Shown: piece by piece, positions 14,276 to 56,700 of the stretch
Position numbering within the stretch: position 1 is the stretch's first letter
How the letters are laid out: the number at the start of each line of letters is the position of its first letter
Assembly (NCBI GenBank): GCA_963978905.1
Contig: OZ022256.1
Span: 9,965,501-10,029,500 of the forward strand
Direction of reading: 5' to 3'
DNA length: 64,000 nt
From: Trichostrongylus colubriformis
Lineage: Eukaryota > Nematoda > Chromadorea > Rhabditida > Trichostrongylidae
Position numbers and translations under genes: made by a program
The notes under the pieces: model-generated
The model's input: the letters and a program-made list of their open reading frames with translations, nothing else
Databases searched by the model: none
Told to the model about the DNA's origin: nothing

Positions 14276-14650
14276 TCCCCAGAACTGCAATAGCACCCTA
14301 AAGACACGTTTTTTGCGCGAGTTCCGCTACACCTTATCTCTCTGAGCTCGTGTGCTTGCTGACAGAGGATAATGTTTCCAAATTCGCTTTCCACGCTCCC
14401 GAAATGGAAGGGCAAGTGTGGGCTTCTTGAAGAGAACTGATCGAGACCATTGTACTTTTCGGCTTCATTGACTCATTTGCATCATTTGCAAGAACAGCCA
14501 GTGTTACCCTGCACAAGATATTACACACGAACTAATCTTATACAGCACTGCCTTTACGCTTAGTAAAGCCATTTATTCTCAGACATACTATTGGCTCCGA
14601 AACTCGATTACGAGAGTCACGGTCGTCATTTGTTGACTAGTGGTCAACTA

Positions 14651-15150
14651 CAGTAGCGGTCAAAAATATATGCGGTTTGGGATTTTGACCATAACTTTGT
14701 ACGGTGTTTGCATATCTCGCTCAATTTTTTTGTGTTTTGAAGGCAACTGTTATTCAATGAAATAAAGTATCTCAGCCGAGTAGGATGCAGTGTGAAGGTT
14801 GCAAAAATTATTTAACTGAAGCCACTGAAAATGGTCAACTCCGTGCCTCAGTGCTGTTAGGATTTGAAATAGCGTGCAACAAAGTCCCAGCTTCATTCCG
14901 TAATATTTTCTGCCCACCTGCCCGTTTCAATGAGTTATAAGCTTTTTATGGCCAATTGAATTTTTGAAAAGGTTTGGCTATTTTTAGAGTTTTTAGTTAA
15001 GTAAATTTTCCAATCTCAACACACACCCTACTTTGCTTCACTGAGTACCAGTTGCCTTCAAAAAACAAAAAAAAAGTTGAATAAGAAATGTAAACTTCGA
15101 CCAAAGTTATGGTTGGAATCCAAAACCGCATATATTTTTGACCGCTACTG
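14651..15150. mobile_element. Foldback FB-5 inserted in left arm of FB-4
   Basis: The ends are CAGTAGCGGTCAAAAATATA and its inverse TATATTTTTGACCGCTACTG. Each side is followed by TTTTGACCATAACTTTGT-like sequence (mirrored as AAAGTTATGGTTGG). It interrupts CAACTA/CGTCTG of FB-4, which is uninterrupted in the right arm at 19560-19573. The target TA is present on the left and has become CA on the right. Size 500 bp, Tc1-like CAGT ends, no coding capacity. Confidence 0.85.
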
Positions 15151-15875
15151 CACGTCTGTCGATAACAATTCAAAGAATGAGTAACATCCGGGAAAAGAAA
15201 GTCGTGCACGGTGGTTTGCAGTTCTGGATAAAGGTAAAATACACACGGGTTTCCAGACAAACGCGACACTTTTGGGCTCGCATTCAGTTCGTCTTTGAAT
15301 ACAGGGTGCGCAACGAATAATGCAACGTGGCAATAAACCTAATATGCATCACTGGCAAAAATGCAACAAAAGAAAAGAATGGAAAATGACAAAATTTAAA
15401 TATGATTCTGGACAATATATTATCATCACTCTTCAATTCGATTTCCTGATTTACATGGCGGTGCTTGGGATAAGAGTGATGACAGCACGTGAATCAGCAG
15501 GCGCCTAAGAGGTCTTCTTGAGCGCGAAATCTGTCGTTCCCCGAACATCAACGTGCCGTCATCCGAAATCAAGGAGGTCAAATGAGAACATATACATGTA
15601 TTGCTTGAATAATTATCATCCAGTTGCCGTTTCTTTTGTTGCATTCTTACCACAGATATTCGGTTTTCATCGTGTGACAGTATTTATTATGCGCCCTGTA
15701 ACAACTTCCACAGTTCAAGTGAACTTAAGACATTTCTCCATCACCTGCTAAGGTTAACAGCTCAGAGTGAAAAACTTGAAAACCTTCTGGTACCTGCATA
15801 TGCGCTCAGCTCTATGACGGTAGAGGCCAAAGCGCATCTACCTACTAGCTGTTTTCACCATCCTGAAGCAAAATA

Positions 15876-16909
15876 TTGGGTCATTCCATAAGTAGTGTCG
15901 TTTTTTTCAAGCAAAAATTTTTGCCACAAGTCACAAATTTTTGCAGCATATTATATATCATTCGGAAGAAAATTCTCTGCTCTACAAAATGGCATACTTG
16001 GTTTTTGATTATGTTAGAATGGCGCCGACATTTAGGCCGGCGAAGAGGTAGGTCCAGTAGACGAAAATTGGCCAAACCGGCAATCAATTGAAACACAATA
16101 TTTTACCTGAGGAAATCTAACCAATCATGTGTTCCGTACTTGGCCCCAACCTCTCCTGTAAGTTCCACCAGTCGGTTTCTCAAAAAGTCACGTCGCTCTT
16201 TTCCACATTTAGTTTTTCCGCCACAACTCGGTGATTTTAGACAATTTCTTCGAACAAAGGCAAGAAAATTTTCTCAACCAATCAGTTGAAAGAGTGGTGA
16301 ATTGTTGAGAACAGGTGGTGCCTAGGAACAGGGAAATACCATTGACCGGATTCCTTAAGTTTCTCATGGGAAAAATAAATTGTGAAAAATGTCAACTGGA
16401 CCCCTATCGCATGGTATAAAAACTCAATCAAAATCACAGCCAAAACAAACTAGAAAGATGTTTTTGATAGAGCAGAAAAAGTCCTTCGAAGTGGTTCATA
16501 AAACAACTCTAATCAAGAAGTTTGAAAGAGAAAATTTTATTTTGAATAAATGTGGGTGCTTTCGAAAAAAAGATTTTAGAAAAAGAACGACACGACTTCT
16601 TGATCAACTAAATATTGGAAATTGTAGAAGAGGTCAGGACTAAGTACGCGACAGATGACTGGTTGATTTTCCTAAATTGAAATATAGTGTTTCAATTGAT
16701 TGCCGGTTTGGTCAATTTTTGTCGGCTGGATCTACCTCTTCGCCAGCTTAAATGTCGGCCCCATTCTAACGAACTCAAAAACTAAACATGTCGTTTTGTA
16801 TACCAGGAGAACCTCTTCCAAGTGATATATGACATGCTGCGGAAACTTGTAATTTCATAGGAAAAATTTACGCTCGAAAAAAAACGACATTACTTATGGA
16901 ATGACCCAA
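15876..16909. mobile_element. Foldback FB-6 (TA-flanked)
   Basis: The ends TTGGGTCATTCCATAAGTAG and CTTATGGAATGACCCAA lie between TA duplications (15874-15875, 16910-16911). Mirrored arms of about 350 bp contain CCGGCGAAGAGGTAG, GGCCAAACCGGCAATCAATTG and ACCAATCATGTG-like blocks. The 84-codon frame at 16389-16643 sits in the loop and right arm, is lysine-rich and has no known domain. Size 1034 bp. TA target and end sequence suggest a Tc1/mariner relative; no transposase motif is visible. Confidence 0.85.
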
Positions 16910-16959
16910 TAGAATGCGTGGCGCACTTCACGAAAAATAATAGTAAGCATGAAAAAATT

Positions 16960-17550
16960 CTTAGTCCGCTTTACTCTTGGGATGAAGGTGGGATCTGAAA
17001 GAACGGTGCCTCCATGCTGATAAGGGAGGGATACCAGGTCGAGGTGGCCATTTGCAATGAGAAACATATCACACTTTCATACGCTGATTTCAAATTTGAG
17101 TGAAAATCTGTCAAACGATTCTCTGAAGGGAGTTATGGACATTTAGCTGAATAAATAATACTATTACATTGTACGTTCGGAAGCCCATAGTGCGCGAGCA
17201 AGACGTTTTAGTGCAAAGCCGGTGTGATTTTCGTGAGGGAACCGAATTACCTTATGGGACAAGTTTTAAGCCAATTTGAGATTTTCTTAAATACTTGAAA
17301 ATTCATGAGCGATTGAGTGGCAGCACATTGTACAAAGGTGAACCCAATGATCTTCAACCAACACATGATCTTATTCGGTGGTTGTTGCGAACATTTGGTG
17401 TCATGAGCACATTCAGCAGGTATTTCCAGATTACCTTTATCATGGTCGATTTTTCTTTTATGGAAATTTGTTGAAAAAAATATTACTTACCCCATGACCA
17501 CCCTTAATTTTCGAAGTCGGGTCAGAAACTCAATTTAGCTCAAAATTTGC
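16960..17550 (+). repeat. Foldback repeat E, partial copy in FB-4 loop
   Basis: It matches 29290-29770 over several hundred bases in the same orientation: CTGAAGGGAGTTA, CTGAATAAATA, GTACGTTCGGA.GCCCATAG, TTTGGTGTCATG and CCCATGACCACCCTT. The start, GGATACCAGGTCGAGGTGGCC, matches inverted at 30235-30262. Confidence 0.7.
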
Positions 17551-17879
17551 ATACACAGGTACCAGATTCCGCGGGGTCAGGGGTTTCCATGTTTTTCATT
17601 CTGAGTTGCGAACCTAGCAGGTGATGGAGAAAGGTCTCAAGTTCACTTGGACTATGGAGGTTGTTACTAGGTGCACAATAAATACCGTCACGCGGTAAAA
17701 AAAATACCAATTATTTCTGCCAAGGGTACAACAAAGAAAACGAGAACTGGATCGTAATTATCTATGGCAATTCTGAACAATATGTATGTCCTCATCACTT
17801 TTCGATTTCACCCTCTCGATTTTGGATGACGGCGCTTTAATGTTCGGGGTACGAGTCGAGTACTCAACGCAGGAAGCGG

Positions 17880-18040
17880 CGTCGACTCCCGTTGAAGGAC
17901 GGCTTTGAGGAGCTAAGCCTCGAAGAGGTGTTGCGCGGGCCTTCTCACCCAGATATCCCCAAACGGGTAGTTTAGAGGGTTAAGATCGAGCAAGGAATTT
18001 CTCCTCTGAGAAGACCGTCCTCAGGTGCTCGTTGGTTCAC
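17880..18040. repeat. Extra hairpin block in FB-4 right arm
   Basis: This stretch has no good counterpart in the left arm. Its ends (GAAGGACGGCTTTGAGGAG and CTCCTCTGAGAAGACCGTCC) are imperfect inverses, so it may be a further small insertion or a diverged arm segment. Confidence 0.35.
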
Positions 18041-18082
18041 GTGCTCTCATCACTCCTACCCCAAACATCGTCATTTAATATA

Positions 18083-19260
18083 TTGGGTTGAGGAATAAGT
18101 TCCCGCGGCTTCTTTAACCCCGTTTTTCACATTGTTCACTTCATCTTTCGACGAAGCTTATATGTGTTTTCGATAGAGCTCCTCTTGCTCTACAAAATGC
18201 TGCTATCTGTTTTCGATTTCTTCGACTACCTCATATTTATGAGGTTTGGAAATGAAATAAGCTGAAGGCAAAAAATTGGCTTTTGCGCACCTCATCATTC
18301 TCGTCTGCCGCCGAGATCAAAAATGTATGAGTATATAATTTTGATAGAGCTTTTTCAGCTCTACAGAATGCCACTACTTTTCATACAAGCTCAACTTTTT
18401 GCTGTTTTTAAGACTCACAAATGCAGTACTCGCAAAAGTGTGCACTTTCGTTATCTCCTCTTCCTCGCCTACCATCGAGATTGGAGAGGATGTGCATATA
18501 TGCATTCGATAGAGCTTTTTTTGCTCTACAAAATGGAATTCGAGGTTTCTGTTCGAATGAATTCTCGCCATTTTTGGATCATTCAAACGTCGACGAAATC
18601 GAGCACTTTCGTCACATGATGTCAAAAGTGCTCGATTTCGTCGACTTTTAAATGATCTAAAAAATGGCGAAAATTTATTCGAACAAAAACCGTAACAGTC
18701 TGCCACAAGAATTTATTTTCATTACGCAATTTTGAAATGAAAAACAGGTGGAAACTTATTCCTACATGCTTAAATACGAGAAGATACAAAAGAAGAGTGG
18801 TATCACCTTGTAGAGCAAAAAAGGCTCTATCGAATGCATATGTGCACATTCTCTCCATTCTCGATGGTAGGCGAGGAAGAGGAGATTACGAAAGTGAGCA
18901 CTTTCGCAATGTACCGCATTTGTGAGTCTTAAAAACGCAAAAAGTTGAGCGATTTGTATGAAAAGTAGTGGCATTCTGTAGAGCCAAAAAAGCTCTATCG
19001 AAAACATATGCACATACATTTTTGATCTTGACGGCAGACGAGAAAGATGAGGTGCGCAAGTGCCAATTTTTCGCATTCGGCTTACTTCATTTCCAAAGCT
19101 CGTAAATATTGGGTAGTGGAGGGAATCAAAAAACAGATAGTAGCATTTTGTAGAGCAGGAAAAGCTCTATCGAAAACATGTATGGGTTTTGTCGAAAGAT
19201 AAGGAGAACAATGTGAAAAACGGGATTAAAAAAACGGCGGGGACTTATTCCTCAACCCAA
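18083..19260. mobile_element. Foldback FB-7 with internal tandem hairpins
   Basis: The ends are TTGGGTTGAGGAATAAGTTC and GACTTATTCCTCAACCCAA. A TA precedes the left end (18081-18082), but GA follows the right, so the duplication has decayed. The arms of about 520-600 bp meet at a perfect inverted block (GTCGACGAAATCGAGCAC, 18590-18607, against 18629-18648). Each arm contains three diverged units of about 165-171 bp, each carrying a GATAGAGC...GCTCTACA hairpin. All frames here (for example 18374-18706) occur on both strands because of the palindrome and are not genes. Confidence 0.9.
18172..18535 (+). repeat. Three tandem hairpin units in FB-7 left arm
   Basis: The GATAGAGCT...(A)GCTCTACA(A/G)AATG hairpin starts at 18172, 18343 and 18508. 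The right arm repeats the set inverted, with hairpins at about 18808-18832, 18972-18999 and 19144-19171. Confidence 0.85.
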
Positions 19261-19583
19261 GAGAGGAGAACGAATCGAAGTGTGACGATGATGTATTTTT
19301 CAACTTATTATAAATTTTATCATATGAACCCCTTTTCCTTTGTTGCACTGTTGCCAGATACATAATAGTTATTTTACCACGTAGCATTATTTGTTGTGCA
19401 CGCTGTATTCGAAGATAGGAGAAAATGCAAGCCCAAAAGCGTCGCTTTTGTGTGGAAAATCCTTGTGTGCATTTTACCTTTATCTTAATCTGCAAATCAC
19501 CGTGTACGACTTCATTTTCCCAGATGACACTCATTCTTTGAATTGTTACTGAACTATCAACAGACGTAGTTGACCACTAGTCA

Positions 19584-19940
19584 TCATTATTTTACGGTCA
19601 GACGTTTGCGTTATAGTGTGAATGTGAAAGAAATTTTTTTTGAAAAATGACGTCGTCGGTCTGAGGAAGAATATCCGTGTCCACGACAAAGTTCAAGTAG
19701 GCCACGTCAGAGAACGGGAGTTGAATTTCAGTTGACATGACGCAAAGGCGACTAATGAAATTGACTAACGGCATTCATTTACTTAGCCAGAAGGGAAATT
19801 GTTTGTCCGTCGTCATCAGTTATGAAATCGACTTAGGAATTCCCGCCATCTGATTCTCCAACTGAATACAGTGCTACCTTTCGAGCTACTGCAGCGTCTG
19901 CGTCTACGGTGATGGCTATATAAATGGTCAATGCAATTAC
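19584..19940. other. No recognised feature
   Basis: No gene. A block near 19640-19710 (GTCGTCGGTCTGAGGA, GGCCAC) weakly resembles repeat H but is not called. Confidence 0.35.
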
Positions 19941-19964
19941 CACTGAACGTAGTGGAGATAGTTG

Positions 19965-20160
19965 TTACAAGTATGCTGAGTTATGGACAAAAGCTTCAGT
20001 TTCGGACGGGACTTGAACTCAGATCCTATTTTTCGGACATATGTGCTAATCCATTACACTACCGAGACCCCTTTTTCCCCTTACCTCAGCTTTTGAATGG
20101 TATATTTACCATAGCATATCACACGCATAACGTGTTAAGCCGGTTAGCCAATATCGGCAT
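19965..20160 (-). repeat. SINE-B copy 1, tRNA-like promoter
   Basis: On the minus strand an A box (TAGTGTAATGGATTAGCAC) and a B box (GAGTTCAAGTCCC) are correctly spaced. They are followed by the family body TTTTGTCCATAACTCAGCAT. The 5' flank AAAGCTGAGGTAAGG and the CATTCAAAAGC block are also shared with 56319-56470. It is not a functional tRNA gene: no CCA-adjacent acceptor pairing of proper length can be drawn. Confidence 0.7.
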
Positions 20161-20204
20161 CAAACCGTGAAGCTAAAAGCTTGAGTAGATTGCTTATGAC
20201 ATTT

Positions 20205-20285
20205 ATGAATTTCGATAGCTGCTGATTTCCATCGAAGCCCGTGATGCGAAAGTTGTTACAAATATGCTGAGTATTGAGATAATTT
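20205..20285 (-). repeat. SINE-B tail fragment
   Basis: CCCGTGATGCGAAAGTTGTTACAAATATGCTGAG matches the tail at 21113-21146 and 38705-38755. The promoter part is absent. Confidence 0.55.
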
Positions 20286-20289
20286 TTAT

Positions 20290-20780
20290 GAGTCTCCCTA
20301 GACGGAAGTATGTAGTGCGAATATTCGCAACTGTGAAGGATCATTTGGTCTGGTTGTGAATCGTTCCGCAGCAAGATTTCACAGGGGAAGGATATCAGGT
20401 GTATTACTTGCTCGCCCTAACTTGCGCCAGGCGGTTTTCCACTTAATGGTGCTAAAGCTTGGAATACAGCCTTTATTAGGAAATGATACTGAATCTGACG
20501 CACATGTACTATATCACAAGTCCCAATCTTGCACCGTGGAGAGCTTGCTCAGACCGCCATACCCCTTCTTGACCAGACGTATTCGAGGGAGACGATCCTT
20601 TCTTGTCAGTGCAGAAGACGAGCGAATAGAAGCGGAAGAGCCCCCGGAATCGGAATGCACGCATCGCCTGTTAGTGCACCAGATCAACCAGAATCGAGAG
20701 TGATTACCTGGAAGGCTCATAATGTGTCATGGATAATAAATGCGTGAGTGAACCTCTGAATCAGCCGTAGCGCTAGCTAT
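20290..20780. other. No recognised gene
   Basis: Frames on both strands at 20356-20747 overlap each other; none has a known motif. Confidence 0.35.
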
Positions 20781-21065
20781 ACCAAGTAGAAGTGGCCATT
20801 TGCAATGAGTCAGATGCCATTCAGACGCTTTTGAGTTTGTATTGCAAATCTGCCGAGCGATTCTATGAACGGAGTTATGAAGGTTTTCCTAGATGCACCA
20901 GTTCCACGTGTGTAAGCGTGTCCCTCGCCCACCTTGCAAATGAATTCAAGGGAAGCTTAATGCTTGCATCAGCATAGCACAAAGGTAGTCGCGGCGGTTC
21001 TCTTGTGGTGGGACCATTTATTGATTCCCCATACGAGCACCTTCCTTGTTCTTCGTAAGACTTTC
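20781..21065 (+). repeat. Foldback repeat E, partial copy 2
   Basis: It is an inverted match to 29985-30262. Shared are GTGGCCATTTGCAATGAG, TTGCAAATCTGCCGAGCGAT, GATGCACCAGTTCCACG and TGTGGTGGGACC. Confidence 0.65.
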
Positions 21066-21084
21066 TCTTTTAATTCGATATTTT

Positions 21085-21250
21085 TGCTTTTTGTTTGCTG
21101 CTGTTTTTCACCGCAGCCCGCAATGTGAAAGTTGTACAGGTATGCTGAGTTATGGGCAAAAGCTGTTACTAGTATGCAGCAGTGCATGGAAAGCATGGAA
21201 TGCGAGTTCGAGTCCCGTCAAACCGAAACTTTTGCCCATAACACAGCATA
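21085..21250 (+). repeat. SINE-B copy 2, interrupted and partly palindromic
   Basis: A tail-like start (AGTTGTACAGGTATGCTGAG) leads into a B box (GCGAGTTCGAGTCCCGT) and then the inverse tail (TTTTGCCCATAACACAGCAT). It is broken by FB-8 at 21251. The remaining end, CTTGTAACAGCTTTC, resumes at 22366. Confidence 0.65.
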
Positions 21251-22363
21251 CAATACCGCTCACGTCGCGTGAATAAAAAAAGCCTCGCGACGGATTAATC
21301 GCGAACAAGCCGTCGCAACGTCATAACATCGTTCAGAGTGGATAAAGTGGAAAGTTCTAAAGAGCATTGGATTCGATTTGACGCCGCGAGTTCAGTGATG
21401 TTTGAAATTTTAAATTTTGATGAGTAACAGTCCTGAAAATCGCGCGAAAACGCGTTTTCGCGTTTTCCCGCTGTAAATCAACTGTTTTGGTTTTTTATCA
21501 GACTTGTATACATTTTCGTAATCAGCTCGTTCAGCTCTACAAGAGGGTGCTACAAGTTTTTGGTTTTCTCAAACTCGATACTGGACCATTTTTCACATTT
21601 TGTGAAGTTTAAGAGAAATTTTCTTCAGAACCTGATGAGTTTGAAATAAAATCCTTTCACAATCTTAATCTGATCGCATAGAAGTGTAGCAATCTGAAGT
21701 TTCCGTCACTTCAGATCAGCCCCTACTCCTTTGTGTGGCCCTAAACAGCGCCTCCGTGTATACTCTGCTAAACAAAAACCATCTCTTAACTCATCTGCAG
21801 ACGGAGATTTCCTAATGAAATGTATGCCGTTCGATTCCTCTGTGAAAATGCTATCGAACGACATACAAAAACCTTTGTGATGATAAATGTCTTATTTTCC
21901 TATTTCCAGCCGTTACCTTTTGTGGATCGACGTCTCAATCTCCTGTCGTCCGTTGCAATTCACGTGCACACCCTGGGAGAGCGGTCACGATCGATGGCGC
22001 TACCGCGAGCTCCTAGCGCTTTCCCACGGCCGTGCACGTGAATAGTGCGATGGCGCCAAAAACTTGTAGCATCCTCTTGTAGAGCTCAACGAGCTGATTA
22101 CGAAAATGTGTACTCCGATAAAAAACCAATAAACAATTGATTTATAGCGGGAAAACGCGAAAACGCGTTTTCGCGCGATTTTCAAGACTGTTACTCATCA
22201 AGATTTAACATTTTATACATCACTAAACTCGCCGCGTGAGACGAATCCAATGCTCTTTAAAACTTTCCTTATCCACTCTGAACGATGTTATGACGTTGCG
22301 ACGGTTTGTTCGCGATTAATCCGTCGCGAGGTTTTTTTTATTCACGCGACGTGAGCGGTATTG
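21251..22363. mobile_element. Foldback FB-8 inserted in SINE-B
   Basis: The ends are CAATACCGCTCACGTCGCGT and ACGCGACGTGAGCGGTATTG. The arms of about 330 bp mirror AAAGCCTCGCGACGGATTAA, GTTCAGAGTGGATAA, GATGAGTAACAGTC, GCGAAAACGCGTTTTCGCG and TTACGAAAATGTGTA (compare TATACATTTTCGTAA). The centre holds a second, smaller inverted pair (CACGTGCAC ... GTGCACGTG, about 21960-22040). There is no transposase. Confidence 0.88.
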
Positions 22364-22974
22364 AACTTGTAACAGCTTTCTCTTTCATGTCTGAGAAGCA
22401 TCCCGAAAAGTTGCAGTGTACAATAACCCATATTCGTTTTCCGCGTTCCTCATTATTGCTATCTTCAAGATCGCAGAAAACTCCGTGATCGAGCTTGTTC
22501 ATATATAAGAGAAACTACCATAGCGCTCGAATTAGACGTTATTGCGTAAAACGATTATTTCTGTTCAGGGTACGAATCACCCCTCTGTGCAAGTTTTTAG
22601 CCAAATTGCGTCTTTGACTAAGAAACCCTTACCATAAAAATCAATGGATTGGATATTGGACTACGTTACAAGTTATGTTGTTATCACTCATGGTTGTGTT
22701 ATTCACTGATGTTAAGGCCGAATAGTGTCCAATAGCCTGTTCTGTTCTGAATAGAAAAACAATGCGGGGCGCATCCCAAAAAGGTTCGTAGGTGTGACAT
22801 GATTTGTCCTTTATGCTGTGCTGAGCAGTTCTGAATGGGAAGCGGACGTATGGCGCATCATAATCCAGATGAATCATCTACCGGTAGAAACCAGGTGCTA
22901 TATCAATGAAGGGGGCGTCTTATAAAAAGTTGGAAGGATCTTCGAGGCGTTAATCTGCTTATTCAAGTGTATAT
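22364..22974. other. No recognised gene
   Basis: Only the SINE-B remnant at the left edge is explained. Two short minus-strand frames have no motif. Confidence 0.4.
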
Positions 22975-23037: not shown

Positions 23038-23712
23038 GGAATGTTCATAGTGGGGAGATCCTCAATGCGATTACACCGAAATGGTGAAGACGCTCTCATA
23101 TGTAAGCCTCCAAGTAATACAAACGTATCCCCAGTTCGGATGAAAATAGAGTAGGTACCGTATTCTAGCGCTATCGCTTGAATTTTGAGAGCTCTCGCAG
23201 CAAAGCAAAGAGTTCCGCTATTTCCGTTAAATCCAGGATGCGTCATATCGGATTGACTTAGTAAGGATTGAATGGATTTGAAGGCACGTCATAGCACCAC
23301 CCTCACATACACTCGTCATTATAAATTTTTATAGCCTAGCCCAACTAACCCTTTTTCTCGTTTGTGTAAGTTTTTGTATCAAATGCTATTCAATTCAATT
23401 TCAGATTTCTTGTCGAAATCTTCGAGGCTCATATGAGACTTCAAATGGTACAGTTCTCTTTACATGGCTTCAGGTATTAGATTTTTCGGCATTCATGTAT
23501 GCGCTATGGGGGACAAACATAAAAAAAGGTCGCACTCGAAAAAAAAGATTCTTGAAGGCTGAGAATTTTGGAAGTATTTTAACCTGAAGAAACATGCTCA
23601 GCAGTGTGTGCTCCATCCACTACAAAACAAATACTAAAAATATTTACACAGCAAAAAAATGGTTCACCTACTATGATGCTCCTTCCATTGCGTAATGTAT
23701 GTATGTATAATA
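23038..23712. other. No recognised gene
   Basis: The minus-strand 95-codon frame at 22959-23246 overlaps the hairpin repeat and shows no known domain. Confidence 0.35.
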
Positions 23713-23815
23713 TTAGGTTGATTGAAAAGTTTTGATAGGGTTGAAATTTTCTCTGTTTCATTTTACAACCAGCAAACAATGCAAGCTAATCAACAATATA
23801 ATAGCCATCGTTTTA

Positions 23816-24699
23816 TTAGGTTGTCCCAAAAGTCTTGTAGTATTTTTCCAAAAAAATCAGTAATTCTTGTTCACTTCGAGGCAGGTCCAGGCGGTTCAGG
23901 AATATGGTAGAACGTTCTCTAATTTTCCTAGGAAAATATATATTGACCCGCCAGATCCCGTGGAGAGAGCTACAATGCCCGTTGTCGATACCCACCCAAC
24001 TCGCGGTGTCATCTATTATGAGCGGTCTTGCGGCACCAAAACGACGGAAGCTTGCCACTCCATCAGCGCTGCATTGGGCAAGGGATGTGTGAGCTACGTG
24101 ACCGTGCGCCGCTGGTTCATCAGCTTCAGCAACGGCGAGATTGACATGAAGGACAAACCACGCTTGGGACTGTGCTGGTTCTGGGACGCGGAAGGAATGC
24201 TTTTCCGCGAGGTGCTGGTACAAGGCGAGACAGTCACCGCTGCCGTATGCACCCACCAGCTCCAGCAGCTCGCCGTCGCTGTTCGAGAAAAGTGCCGGGA
24301 AAGGTCTGCGGTCACCCTTCTTCATGACGACGCCCGCTCCCATTTCGCGAAAAGTACCCAGGCCAAGTTATAGGAGCTCGGCTGGGATGTGCTGCCCCAC
24401 CCGCCATAATCTCCAGACGTTGCCCCTTCTGGCTGTCACCTTACCCATCCTCTCGAATCCTTCCGGCCAAGAGAAAATTCGTTGATTATGACATGCTTGC
24501 GAAGGCGATCGCTGCCTTCTTCGACTCTTAGAACCCAGAGTTCTGGGAGAAGGAAATCAACGGTTTTTCTATGAAGTGGCAGAGGGTTACCGATAACAAT
24601 GGTCAATACGTTGTTGCCTAATTGTTATTTGTTGGACGAAAAAAAAAAACAAAAAGTGATGATCGGAAAAAATACTACAAGACTTTTGGGACAACCTAA
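23816..24699 (+). mobile_element. Mariner element, family M3, nested in M2 palindrome
   Basis: The ends TTAGGTTGTCCCAAAAGTCT and AGACTTTTGGGACAACCTAA (the right one read GACTTTTGGGACAACCTAA at 24681-24699) lie between TA duplications (23814-23815, 24700-24701). At 884 bp it is internally deleted. It sits in the left arm of the M2 palindrome and so is younger. A sibling with nearly the same size and apparently the same deletion is at 50139-51018. Confidence 0.94.
23974..24620 (+). pseudogene. Mariner transposase relic (family M3)
   Basis: From the ATG at 23974 the frame gives a mariner N-terminal helix-turn-helix domain (GVIYYERSCGTKTTEACHSI, then TVRRWFISFSNGEIDMKDKP). It then passes straight to the catalytic core (VLVQGETVTAAV, HDDARSHFAKS). 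The segment that should carry the second DNA-binding domain and the first catalytic aspartate is missing. The frame stops at 24371. Past the stop the same frame continues as ELGWDVLPHPP, a second stop, then SPDVAPSGCHL. The last catalytic aspartate, normally in PSDYH, is glycine. The tail (PEFWEKE, DNNGQYVVA) follows after a frameshift. The element cannot transpose alone but keeps ends that a related transposase could use. Confidence 0.92.
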
Positions 24700-25289
24700 T
24701 ATAACATTGTCCCACCCAACGGGCAGGTCAGCGATTCCCTTTCCCCAGAACAGGGAAGATTGGGAGTCAAAGAAGTTACCGACCCCTTGTTCAAGGTGGT
24801 CATAGTTTTTTTTTTGCTAGGAAAGCCTTGAGGGGCCAGAACAAGTGGTAACCTGGGGGGGGGGGGCAACATCAGGTTAATAGGGTGGATGTGGAACCGT
24901 GGCCCAACCTAGCTCCTCCAATTTTGCACGGGTCTTTCTCATAGGTAAAGAGACCCGTGCAATGAAGGAGTCAAGTTGGGACATGGTTCCACATCCAACT
25001 ATTCACGTGATGTTGTCCCCTCAGATCAACACTTTTTCCGGCCCCTCAAGGCTTTCCTAGCAAAAAAACAGTTCGTCAACTATGACCACCTTGAACTCGG
25101 TCGGTGACTTCTTTGACACCCAATCTTCCCAGTTTTGGGAGAAGGGAATCGCTGACCGCCCGTTGGGAGGGACAATGTTATAACTAACAATGGTCATTAT
25201 ATTGTTGGTTAGCTTGTATTGTTTGCTGAGTTGTAAAATAAAACAGAAAAACATCTCAACCCTATCAAAACTTTTCGATCAACCTAATA

Positions 25290-25760
25290 GTATATTCAGG
25301 CAGAAATCACTCGCAATTACTGTCTCGCTTAGCCTAGCACATTAAAAACGCCATGCGAAAATTAAAGGCAAAAAACTTAAAGAACATAAAAACGATGGGA
25401 AAATAGTGGGCCATGGTCCATTCCCAAAAACTCTAGTACATTCCGTTGCGTAACGTTAGCAATCGTGGTAGTGTCTACCCACTGCAACCCTTTTCAGATA
25501 CGAAATGGTTCATTTTCCACTTAACGACTTTTTGCTCAAATGTTCAATTATAATTATCCTGCTGGTGATCAAGCAATTTATTGTTAAATGTTCCAAATAC
25601 ATGTAATGAAAATGAGTTCCTACGGTGAATTTACATGCGTTTTTAAGTGTGACCGTCAAAGTTCATTAGCAAATTAAATTCACCGTAAAAACTTCAGTGA
25701 ATGGTGGTCCAAAAGCACCGAAACAACTGAAGGGATATACTTTGTGTAATTTGAGGTGTT
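25290..25760. other. No recognised feature
   Basis: AT-rich sequence between two mariner insertions, with no gene or repeat recognised. Confidence 0.45.
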
Positions 25761-37240: not shown

Positions 37241-39430
37241 ACCGCAACCCCAACAGCGCAGCGTTTCAGGCGGTCTTCATTTCTTAGAGCTCACTCCCCG
37301 TTTAGTCGTGATTAACCTTCAGAGACTCCCGGGTGACGATTCCGCCAACTCCAACTGATCATAATCGATACCTACCTGCTTCAATCGTGAGGAAAAGGGC
37401 ACCTCTCCAGTTTTGCTCGTCACCCCGCAATCTGCTGCAATCTGAAGGCGCGTCTAGTTTTCGCGATCAACCTCATTATCGTTATATTCGTTATATTAGT
37501 CTTCTAATCATTGCTCGGATTCTGTGTCTCATTCTGATAGAACTTTCGGATGCTCGCAACCAAAAAATGTCCTTTCTATCTCACTGCGCGAACCAGGCAG
37601 CTCTTCAGCAATTTGACGAGTAATCGCCCTAGCAAAGCGTAATGGAGTGCTGGCCAACTCCACTTTTGGTCAATTTAATTCATCTAATTCCTCTTCATCG
37701 CCTTATGTCAAGGCATTACTGCCAACTTCAAGATTGTTTGTTGCAGGGCAAGCGAAGCGATCTTGGCTTCAGCATGGCTTTGTCCTCATGAGCCGGCTAA
37801 TGTGCTTGCCTGAATTCCGGTATCATACAATTGTTCTCGTATTATTCCTCGCATTGGTGTTATCCCTCATAGACTTTCTATACACGTCTACCGTCCTAAT
37901 GTCGAGCGGTACGACACAATTGCTTTTTTGTGCGAAATTGTTCCACAAGTTGTTGCATTTTCTACCAACTTTTTCGGCTTACTGTATGAAAGTCGCACTG
38001 AATTCCCTCATGCTGTCTCACTGAAAGCATGAAAGCTTATGTCCAACATCACAAATGGAGTTTGGTGATTTAATGCCATCTAATAATTTCTGGTCTACGC
38101 CTGACATACTTTATTCATTGACCCTTCGGCTGGTGCACCGATCAATCCATTCCGTTCCAATCTGTGTTCTTATTCGAACTGTAGTTCATTCCGTCACGAG
38201 TCGCCTTCCTCAGATTATACGGTAGGTAATCTCACCCAGTGTACTTGCAATTCCGGCAACTGTATTTGTAAGGTTGGTCGTTCCAACTCTCAAACCCCAT
38301 TCAGGAAGAGGCCTGCTGCTTCACACCACTTATGAAAATAGGCACGTGAGATGGGTGAACTTTGGATCAGCGATTCTAATGAACTCGCCCTGTCCTGGCG
38401 CAATTCTAGCGACCGTATCCTCGATTGCAGCTCGCATTCAATTATCACGAACCAAAGTTATGCACTTGCGCCAATTACTCGAGTACCACGGGCGACAAGA
38501 TAGGCGCTGGTCTCGTTACTTCTAGCCAGCTGGCGGCCCAACTTTTAGCGGTGGAGAGAGCGATACTGTCCTCTGTCTCTACATTGTTCCATCACTCCCT
38601 ATCCGCGTTATTCGATAGAACAAACTTTCTAGCATTCTCCCTTCACACTCCGTTGGCCACCAATCCAACACTAACATTTTGATATTTTTGATTTTTAATA
38701 ACTGCTGTTTATCGCTGCAGCTCGCGATGCGAAACTTACTACAAGGATGCTGAGTTATGGGGGTTCGAGTCTCGTCCGACACCGAAGCTTTAGCACATAA
38801 CTCAGCATCCTTGTACCAACACTAACACTTAGACACCTTTTAGCGCGCAATATTCATCAGCCGTCCCATTCCTAGGTAACGACCTGGTATAAACACATCG
38901 CTGTCTAGCCATTCCACCTTGTCATTTCCAGCTTTTGCCGTTCAAGGGCACAAGCTCCTCGAAGCCCCTGGTTAGGACTTTTCTAGACCCCACTACCCTA
39001 GTGGCCTCTTCAGACGCGCCTCTTGCTCATTGCCCCACAGTAACCTAATTTCACATTTTGCATGGAGATGGTTGCCTCAAACTTGATTCGGTCGCAGGCA
39101 AAGCTCAATCAGTATCTTCTAACAATATCCAAAGTATCGGTCTTCCCTCTTCTTTGAACGCCTGTTTTCTTGCCCTTCCACTTGTTATGTTTCACCGAAA
39201 CTACTACTCCCGCCGCCAACGGGGACCTTTGTTCGTTACCTAATCGAGGGACCATACCGACTCCCTCGTGCAGGTTACCAAAGTAATAAACTTCTAGCTA
39301 ATTCGCCTTTGTTACCCCCGCTGTAGTAAATTTCGTGAACTCATTATTACTCATGGCTAACCCCTCGTCTCAACCACAAACACTCTATCACAACCAGGTT
39401 ATATCTCTCCTCTCTCTGACAGAAGCCAGA
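37241..39430 (+). other. Unassigned middle of the Gypsy relic, with SINE insertion
   Basis: Between gag and reverse transcriptase there are several short frames (37333-37623, 37647-38024, 38274-38525, 38425-38682). None shows a clear protease active site. One frame near 38185-38270 has a cysteine-rich run (TQCTCNSGNCICK) that I cannot assign. SINE-B copy 3 is inserted at 38683-38820. Confidence 0.3.
38683..38820. repeat. SINE-B copy 3, collapsed to a palindrome
   Basis: GCTGCAGCTCGCGATGCGAA, then TACTACAAGGATGCTGAG, a short B-box part (GGGTTCGAGTCTCGT), then the inverse CTCAGCATCCTTGTA. The A-box half has been lost and the tail duplicated in inverted form. Confidence 0.65.
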
Positions 39431-56318: not shown

Positions 56319-56520
56319 TTACTACAAGGATGCTGAGTTATGGGCAAAAGCCTTGGTGTCAGACGGAACTCGAACCCGCACCTCATGCTTTCCGGGCATA
56401 TGTGCTAATCCATTACACTACCAAGACACCTCCCACCCTAACTCAGCTTCTGAATGGTATATCTACCATAGCTTATCACTCACACTATAACTTGCTGAGC
56501 CGGTTGGTCAGTACGGCATA
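56319..56520 (-). repeat. SINE-B copy 4, minus strand
   Basis: The best preserved tRNA-like segment in the window: on the minus strand GGTGTCTTGGTAGTGTAATG, then ATTAGCACATATG, then a B box (GCGGGTTCGAGTTCC) and GTCTGACACC. Some acceptor-like pairing (GGTGTC with GACACC) is possible, but extra bases before the D-arm argue against a working tRNA. Confidence 0.75.
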
Positions 56521-56700
56521 ATAACCTATGGTAGATATACCATTCAGAAGCTGAGTTGAGGGGAAAGGAATGTCGCAAGTGCAATGGATTAGCACATATG
56601 TCCGGAAAATGGGGTGTGGGTTCAAGTTCCGTCCGAAACCGAAGCTTTTGTCCATAACTCAGCATACTTGTAGTAACTTTCGCATCGCCGGCTGCGACAA
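56521..56700 (+). repeat. SINE-B copy 5, head-to-head with copy 4
   Basis: AAGTGCAATGGATTAGCACA and GGGTTCAAGTTCC, then TTTTGTCCATAACTCAGCAT and a tail GTAACTTTCGCATCGC. Together with copy 4 it makes a 370-bp inverted pair. Confidence 0.75.

Follow-up and report, generated by a model that had tools for sequence, protein, structure and literature searches.

What brings four different palindromes together within 5 kb of a nematode genome? The block in question (positions 14634-19583) lies in a window of 64,000 nucleotides from Trichostrongylus colubriformis, corresponding to positions 9965501-10029500 of contig OZ022256.1 (hereafter C1) in a genome of 331 Mb and 52 contigs. It consists of an outer inverted repeat, FB-4, three further foldbacks, FB-5, FB-6 and FB-7, and part of a repeat, E. 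The initial annotation of this DNA described a nest of palindromic elements and proposed that foldbacks prefer other foldbacks as targets, or survive best there. Our analysis indicates that one old and unique inverted duplication here hosts nested, non-autonomous DNA transposons of the cut-and-paste type (probability of about 0.8), and did not support a preference for foldbacks. The structure is a fresh example of nested miniature inverted-repeat transposable elements (MITEs), a known phenomenon.

We confirmed all four inverted repeats at their noted positions by arm-to-arm BLAST, the best piece having an E-value between 2e-28 (FB-5) and 2e-156 (FB-7). FB-4 aligned in three pieces that are 73-78% alike (weakest E-value 9e-8). 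The nest therefore holds as annotated and is slightly richer, an additional element, m, being present in it; the arm alignments likewise agree with the placement of FB-5 in the left arm of FB-4, of FB-7 in the right arm, and of FB-6 and part of E in the loop (Table 1). The left arm is interrupted by FB-5, and its partner carries the empty site where the initial annotation had located it, reading TCAACTACGTCTGT at 19560-19573 on the minus strand, which implies that FB-5 inserted into a TA. FB-7 lies inside the right-arm copy of m and is hence nested two levels deep; the left-arm m runs through its insertion point without a break, as do all eight aligned solo copies of m, chosen from 27 loci (L012-L038). 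Reading insertion points from partner arms, as had been proposed, thus works for FB-5 and FB-7 and fails for FB-6 and E in the loop. In the block, FB-6 has TA on both sides, whereas one side of FB-5 has become CA and one side of FB-7 GA. Solo copies are mostly TA-flanked, as the initial annotation had expected, with TA on both sides in 17 of 19 copies of FB-5 (the other two were unread by exact string) and in 19 of 20 of FB-7, and both TAs within the alignment for 38 of 39 FB-6 copies.

The inserted elements belong to separate families. As anticipated, solo copies of FB-5, FB-6 and FB-7 occur elsewhere, with 637, 1042 and 1002 exact ends genome-wide, respectively, against none for reversed-pattern controls. 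The 39 other scored copies of FB-5 are 96-97% alike to the window copy, and the 39 of FB-6 are 92-95% alike. Terminal inverted repeats, high copy number and dispersal are found for all three and for m, and no stop-to-stop frame of at least 150 amino acids is present within 14634-19583, which bears on the window copies only. MITEs are usually under 800 bp. This holds for FB-5, at 500 bp, and for m, at about 560 bp, but FB-6 reaches about 1034 bp and FB-7 usually about 1380 bp, so that the description as long-palindrome non-autonomous elements fits them better. FB-7 is as a rule a near-perfect palindrome, the window copy of 1178 bp being more divergent and partly deleted; full copies of E measure about 1060 bp, with terminal inverted repeats of about 118 bp. 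The ends of the inserted elements are TTGGGTTGAGGAATAAGT, TTGGGTCATTCCATAAGT and CAGTAGCGGTCAAAAATATATGCGG. A common end type, TTGGGT or TTAGGT followed by six bases and ATAAGT or AAAAGT, is shared by FB-6, FB-7 and a mariner-like element at 23814-24702 of the window. We take such ends to be mariner-like and the CAG ends to be Tc1-like, superfamily labels based on the TA sites and on general end motifs. None of six end strings was found in any paper by a literature search.

Two details concern the interior of FB-7. A spaced repeat, GATAGAGC..GCTCTAC, occurs three times in each arm of the window copy and four times in each arm of the full copy L066; its GCTCTACA core is also present in FB-6 and in a foldback at 21251-22363. 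The palindrome at 18544-18691 was considered as an extra nested insertion and rejected, as it is the FB-7 core in five of five family copies tested.

FB-4 behaves differently in the genome. A search with its left arm returned, besides FB-4 itself, relatives of the middle part only (40 of the 125 candidates being scored). This middle part is m, a separate Tc1-like MITE with CAGGGTGCG ends, which occurs solo, with its own ends, elsewhere in the genome. Outside m, queries of 145 bases (outer arm) and 172 bases (inner arm) gave two genome matches each, namely the two arms of FB-4, which are 83 and 86% alike over these pieces. With no more than this one genome copy, and at the sensitivity of the search, FB-4 is not a dispersed foldback family; the uninterrupted copies of FB-4 that the initial annotation proposed to look for were not found, and the searches gave no sign of the 5-kb block as a repeated unit, in line with the reading as a nest. 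FB-4 is either the inverted duplication of one m-bearing segment or a single-copy element. The same TA site is occupied by m in both arms (TA read by eye in each), and TACAGGG-type starts are present in several of the eight solo copies, though uncounted. The left-arm m lacks about 140 bp near 15519-15533; the extra 154 bases at 17855-18008 of the right arm belong to m and were lost from the left.

Table 1. Features of the palindromic block in window coordinates (TSD, target-site duplication).
Feature	Position	Strand	Remarks
FB-4, outer inverted repeat	14634..19583	.	unique inverted duplication or single-copy foldback; from arm alignment and genome search
FB-4, left arm	14634-14650 + 15153-about 15810		
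FB-4, right arm	about 17545-18082 + 19263-19583		
Possible relic of an 8-bp TSD	14626..14633	.	TCATTTGT; partner TCATTATT at 19584-19591
FB-5, 500-bp Tc1-like MITE	14651..15150	+	TSD TA 14649-14650, CA (decayed TA) 15151-15152
m, left-arm copy, Tc1-like MITE	15302..15698	+	CAGGGTGCG ends; TA 15300-15301 and TA 15699-15700
FB-6, 1034-bp mariner-like element in loop	15876..16909	+	TSD TA 15874-15875, TA 16910-16911
Repeat E, left half only, in FB-4 loop	17022..17551	+	
m, right-arm copy, interrupted by FB-7	17667..19405	-	TA 19406-19407 and 17665-17666
FB-7, mariner-like long palindrome	18083..19260	+	TSD TA 18081-18082, GA (decayed TA) 19261-19262
FB-7 central palindrome	18544..18691	.	core of FB-7 itself

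A nest predicts that likeness to relatives rises with nesting, and this is what we observed: 64-73% for m (against the eight solo copies), 70-77% for E, at most 91% for the FB-7 arms (29 other copies), and then FB-6 and FB-5 at the values given above, all of these being upper values from the best-scoring copies. Arm-to-arm identity was discarded as a measure of insertion age. In all eight FB-5 copies examined, the window copy included, the arms are 84-86% alike while whole copies are 97-99% alike, and FB-6 arms range from 76 to 83% over 80 rows from 40 scored copies. Arm divergence must therefore not serve as an age.

These observations are consistent with the following order of events. The element m would have first inserted at a TA within a segment of about 0.8 kb, which would then have turned into an inverted duplication with a short spacer, FB-4, unless one arm acquired its m from the other; a copy of E would have been left as a half in the spacer. 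Later, FB-7 would have entered a TA of the right-arm m and FB-6 a TA of the loop, and FB-5, the most recent, a TA close to the outer tip of the left arm. For their movement the elements presumably relied on Tc1- or mariner-type transposases acting in trans and needing TA only, and the site would have been tolerant rather than attractive.

Several points weigh against this reading. The two m copies of FB-4 are 71% alike in one alignment, which is no more than they share with solo copies; the argument that a single segment was duplicated therefore depends on the arm pieces beside m. The single-copy status of FB-4 comes from a first look of the search, which very old copies might escape, and FB-6 and E, lying in the loop, have no partner arm proving that they interrupt FB-4. 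FB-5 and FB-6 are also closer together than chance on part of one contig (see below). Finally, the 8-mers flanking FB-4 match at six of eight bases, a weak match equalled by 0.5% of random 8-mer pairs in the window when the 8-bp length only is considered, and this is a weak hint that FB-4 itself transposed. FB-4 would then be one transposon with long terminal repeats whose arms include m, and no other copy of its family would still be detectable. Its readable ends at 14634 and 19583 would suit such an element, as would the flank match and the lack of special likeness between the two m copies; a second copy of the outer or inner arm was not found in the genome search, and m occurs solo with its own ends, and we regard this possibility as rather doubtful. 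A reading of the entire 5-kb block as one repeat family found no support and, at the sensitivity of the search, is hardly credible, the FB-4 arm outside m being found here only and the contents being dispersed separately.

The proposal that foldbacks prefer foldbacks supposes that hairpin- or cruciform-forming DNA attracts insertions of the Tc1/mariner type. In its favour, FB-4 received three later insertions over about 2 kb, and the window has a second nest, at 23706-25294. At the sites themselves, with the insert removed, inverted repeats of at least 60 columns were sought up to 1.09 kb to each side. None of the 19 FB-5 sites lay in such a repeat, as compared to 21 of 180 random points (the hits coming from 7 of the 20 random loci) and, in the window, 12 of 111 points that are not part of the block. 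Somewhere in the flanks a foldback was present at 6 of the 19 FB-5 sites and at 5 of the 20 random loci, these loci being the first 20 of 40 drawn from six large contigs. For FB-7, none of eight testable sites lay in a detectable foldback, as against 2 of 20 random midpoints; the eight remained from 12 loci after dropping the window, one that duplicates L065, one locus without an end and one with a 17-base flank. Foldbacks well above 2-3 kb in width escape this assay, which also misses the FB-5 site of the window itself. Clearly over-long copies numbered two among 94 paired-end copies of FB-5, FB-6 and FB-7 (an FB-5 of 703 bp and an FB-7 of 2709 bp); pairs were sought among the first 100 exact ends listed per family on C1, at a spacing of up to 6 kb, leaving 112 unpaired ends aside. 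At the present sensitivity and samples, a targeting of foldbacks by FB-5 and FB-7 is not supported, and we consider it improbable; the impression that palindromes stack on palindromes has in this way been turned into a tested statement.

The alternative, which is compatible with a nest in a unique inverted duplication, is that elements gather in gene-poor stretches where earlier insertions offer a safe landing ground. Foldbacks already span 18% of random sequence in 3-kb pieces (14% without one satellite-like locus) and 12% of the window. A hand count gave about 22 insertions in the window, about six of them nested, and in a rough simulation of 22 insertions a mean of 17% were nested, with a 95th percentile of 32%; the chance that some element takes three insertions was 4% (2-8% for 18-26 insertions) in the same simulation. 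As the window was chosen for its nest, the nested count is no clear excess over simulation. Over 0-23 Mb of C1, FB-5 (24 copies) and FB-6 (56 copies) lie within 3 kb of each other four times, one of which is the window, where 0.43 is expected, and none of 1000 random placements reached four, whereas FB-5/FB-7 and FB-6/FB-7 pairs displayed no excess. This proximity might also be taken in favour of targeting, but in the three pairs outside the window (FB-5 copies at C1 11091097, 11778716 and 20929604) FB-6 lies 1.6-2.0 kb downstream, and these are neighbours, not nests. The flanks of the three FB-5 right ends (first 221 bases around and downstream) are unrelated, which does not support a composite mobile unit of FB-5 and FB-6. 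We read the proximity as a shared tolerance of certain regions and not as nesting, so that the suggestion that foldbacks survive best there may still hold. Clustered MITEs, together with the safe-haven idea, also figure in the part of the carrot MITE paper that we used (PMC3695323). The test is post hoc and covers 23 Mb of one contig, and the gene-poor character is assumed; we give clustering by tolerance a little less than an even chance. At 18 of 19 FB-5 sites none of the searched end motifs occurs within 150 bp. In L102 (1111-2133) and L105 (C1 11091097), another Tc1-like element lies 6 and 10 bp beyond the FB-5 right end, with a similar end, CAGTAGCG[CT]TCAAAAG.

Nested MITEs were reportedly described in maize and rice by Jiang and Wessler in 2001. 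In these plants and, from the sections of PMC3695323 at hand, in the carrot DcSto elements, MITEs likewise lie in or beside MITEs at TA or TTA sites; as far as these sources go, the present locus differs in having a unique inverted duplication as its host and longer palindromes among its inserts, and a preference was not supported by the targeting test. MITEs within MITEs were not found in the portion consulted of a silkworm MITE paper (PMC2997013). A weak insertion preference for palindromes is indicated in the available part of a study on the nesting of plant long-terminal-repeat retrotransposons (PMC6911290), a system with another element class and other hosts.

A stronger side result, and in our opinion the part worth pursuing, is that the FB-7 arms appear to exchange sequence within a copy, in tract-like mosaics. 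We built a tree from the outer 455 bases of both arms of 30 copies, namely the window copy and its best matches, a biased sample. The two arms of one element are each other's closest relatives in 14 of the 30 elements, accounting for 14 of 18 cherries (local support 0.79-1.0), as compared to a mean of 0.3 and a maximum of 3 over 2000 label shuffles; the window copy is not one of the 14. Two distinct arm types, common to several copies, are found in L063, L067 and L068 and in L071-L073, L075 and L077. In L065 and L066, the two types are retained at the four strict diagnostic sites of columns 1-48, and beyond column 48 nine of ten diagnostic sites agree between arms, as a mosaic; similar mosaics at 14 sites were observed in L070, L074, L076, L078, L079 and L080. 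Over 26 copies, arms differ by 2.2-4.0% at 100-600 bases from the end, versus 6.7-11.8% between copies; the corresponding values are 4.8-6.4% versus 7.3-13.8% in the outer 100 bases and 8.7% versus 12.9% in the centre. A sparing of the outer ends from exchange was considered and discarded: the outer 100 columns are about twice as divergent as columns 100-600, but alike in sister-arm and other elements. L070, a 2285-bp relative of FB-7, is a double palindrome with two centres and outer arms that are 99% alike.

It is about an even bet that long palindromic mariner-like elements stay palindromic because their arms overwrite each other tract by tract, through gene conversion or templated repair. 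Like arms could alternatively stem from unsampled source elements with already homogenised arms, or from assembly polishing that merged the arms, although the existence of FB-7 copies whose arms are unlike speaks against a general role of polishing. If exchange does operate, arm likeness would be no clock, new arm pairs could seed new subfamilies, and conversion could copy a nested insertion across, a possible origin of m in both arms of FB-4. With one palindromic family and two arm types, FB-7 would offer a natural system for measuring arm-to-arm exchange. The closest parallel is Galileo, a Foldback-like transposon of Drosophila, for which the parts of PMC2775673 and PMC3573991 that we drew on report some copies with arms more alike within than between copies, others with unlike arms, and chimeric copies. 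On this basis the likeness extends to long inverted arms, within-copy arm likeness, extension of the terminal inverted repeats and nested insertions; Galileo belongs to the P superfamily and has a 7-bp TSD, whereas FB-7 has TA sites and mariner-like ends.

Other palindromic structures are present in the window. The second nest, at 23706-25294, is an outer foldback with TTAGGTTGATTGAAAAGT ends that holds the mariner-like element at 23814-24702, to which a palindrome at 24700-25182 directly adjoins. This element carries a transposase fragment with HTH_48 and Transposase_1 domains, and a protein search with its open reading frame matched six proteins. The frame (23864-24373) has mariner domains and reads LLHDDARSH, close to the LLHDNARSH given in the excerpt used for bandit, a mariner of Ancylostoma caninum (PMC2041818); this bandit-like frame belongs to an element separate from FB-6 and FB-7. 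At 20779-22606, a minus-strand copy of repeat E is interrupted by the 1.1-kb foldback at 21251-22363 (arms 91% alike) and by part of another repeat. The Rfam search of the window gave a hit to a tRNA only, located outside the 5-kb block: a palindrome of about 360 bp at 56319-56676 holds a predicted tRNA-Ser (GGA) at 56355-56427 on the minus strand (Rfam, ARAGORN), and pieces of this palindrome repeat at 19957-20272, 21074-21251 and 38677-38820.

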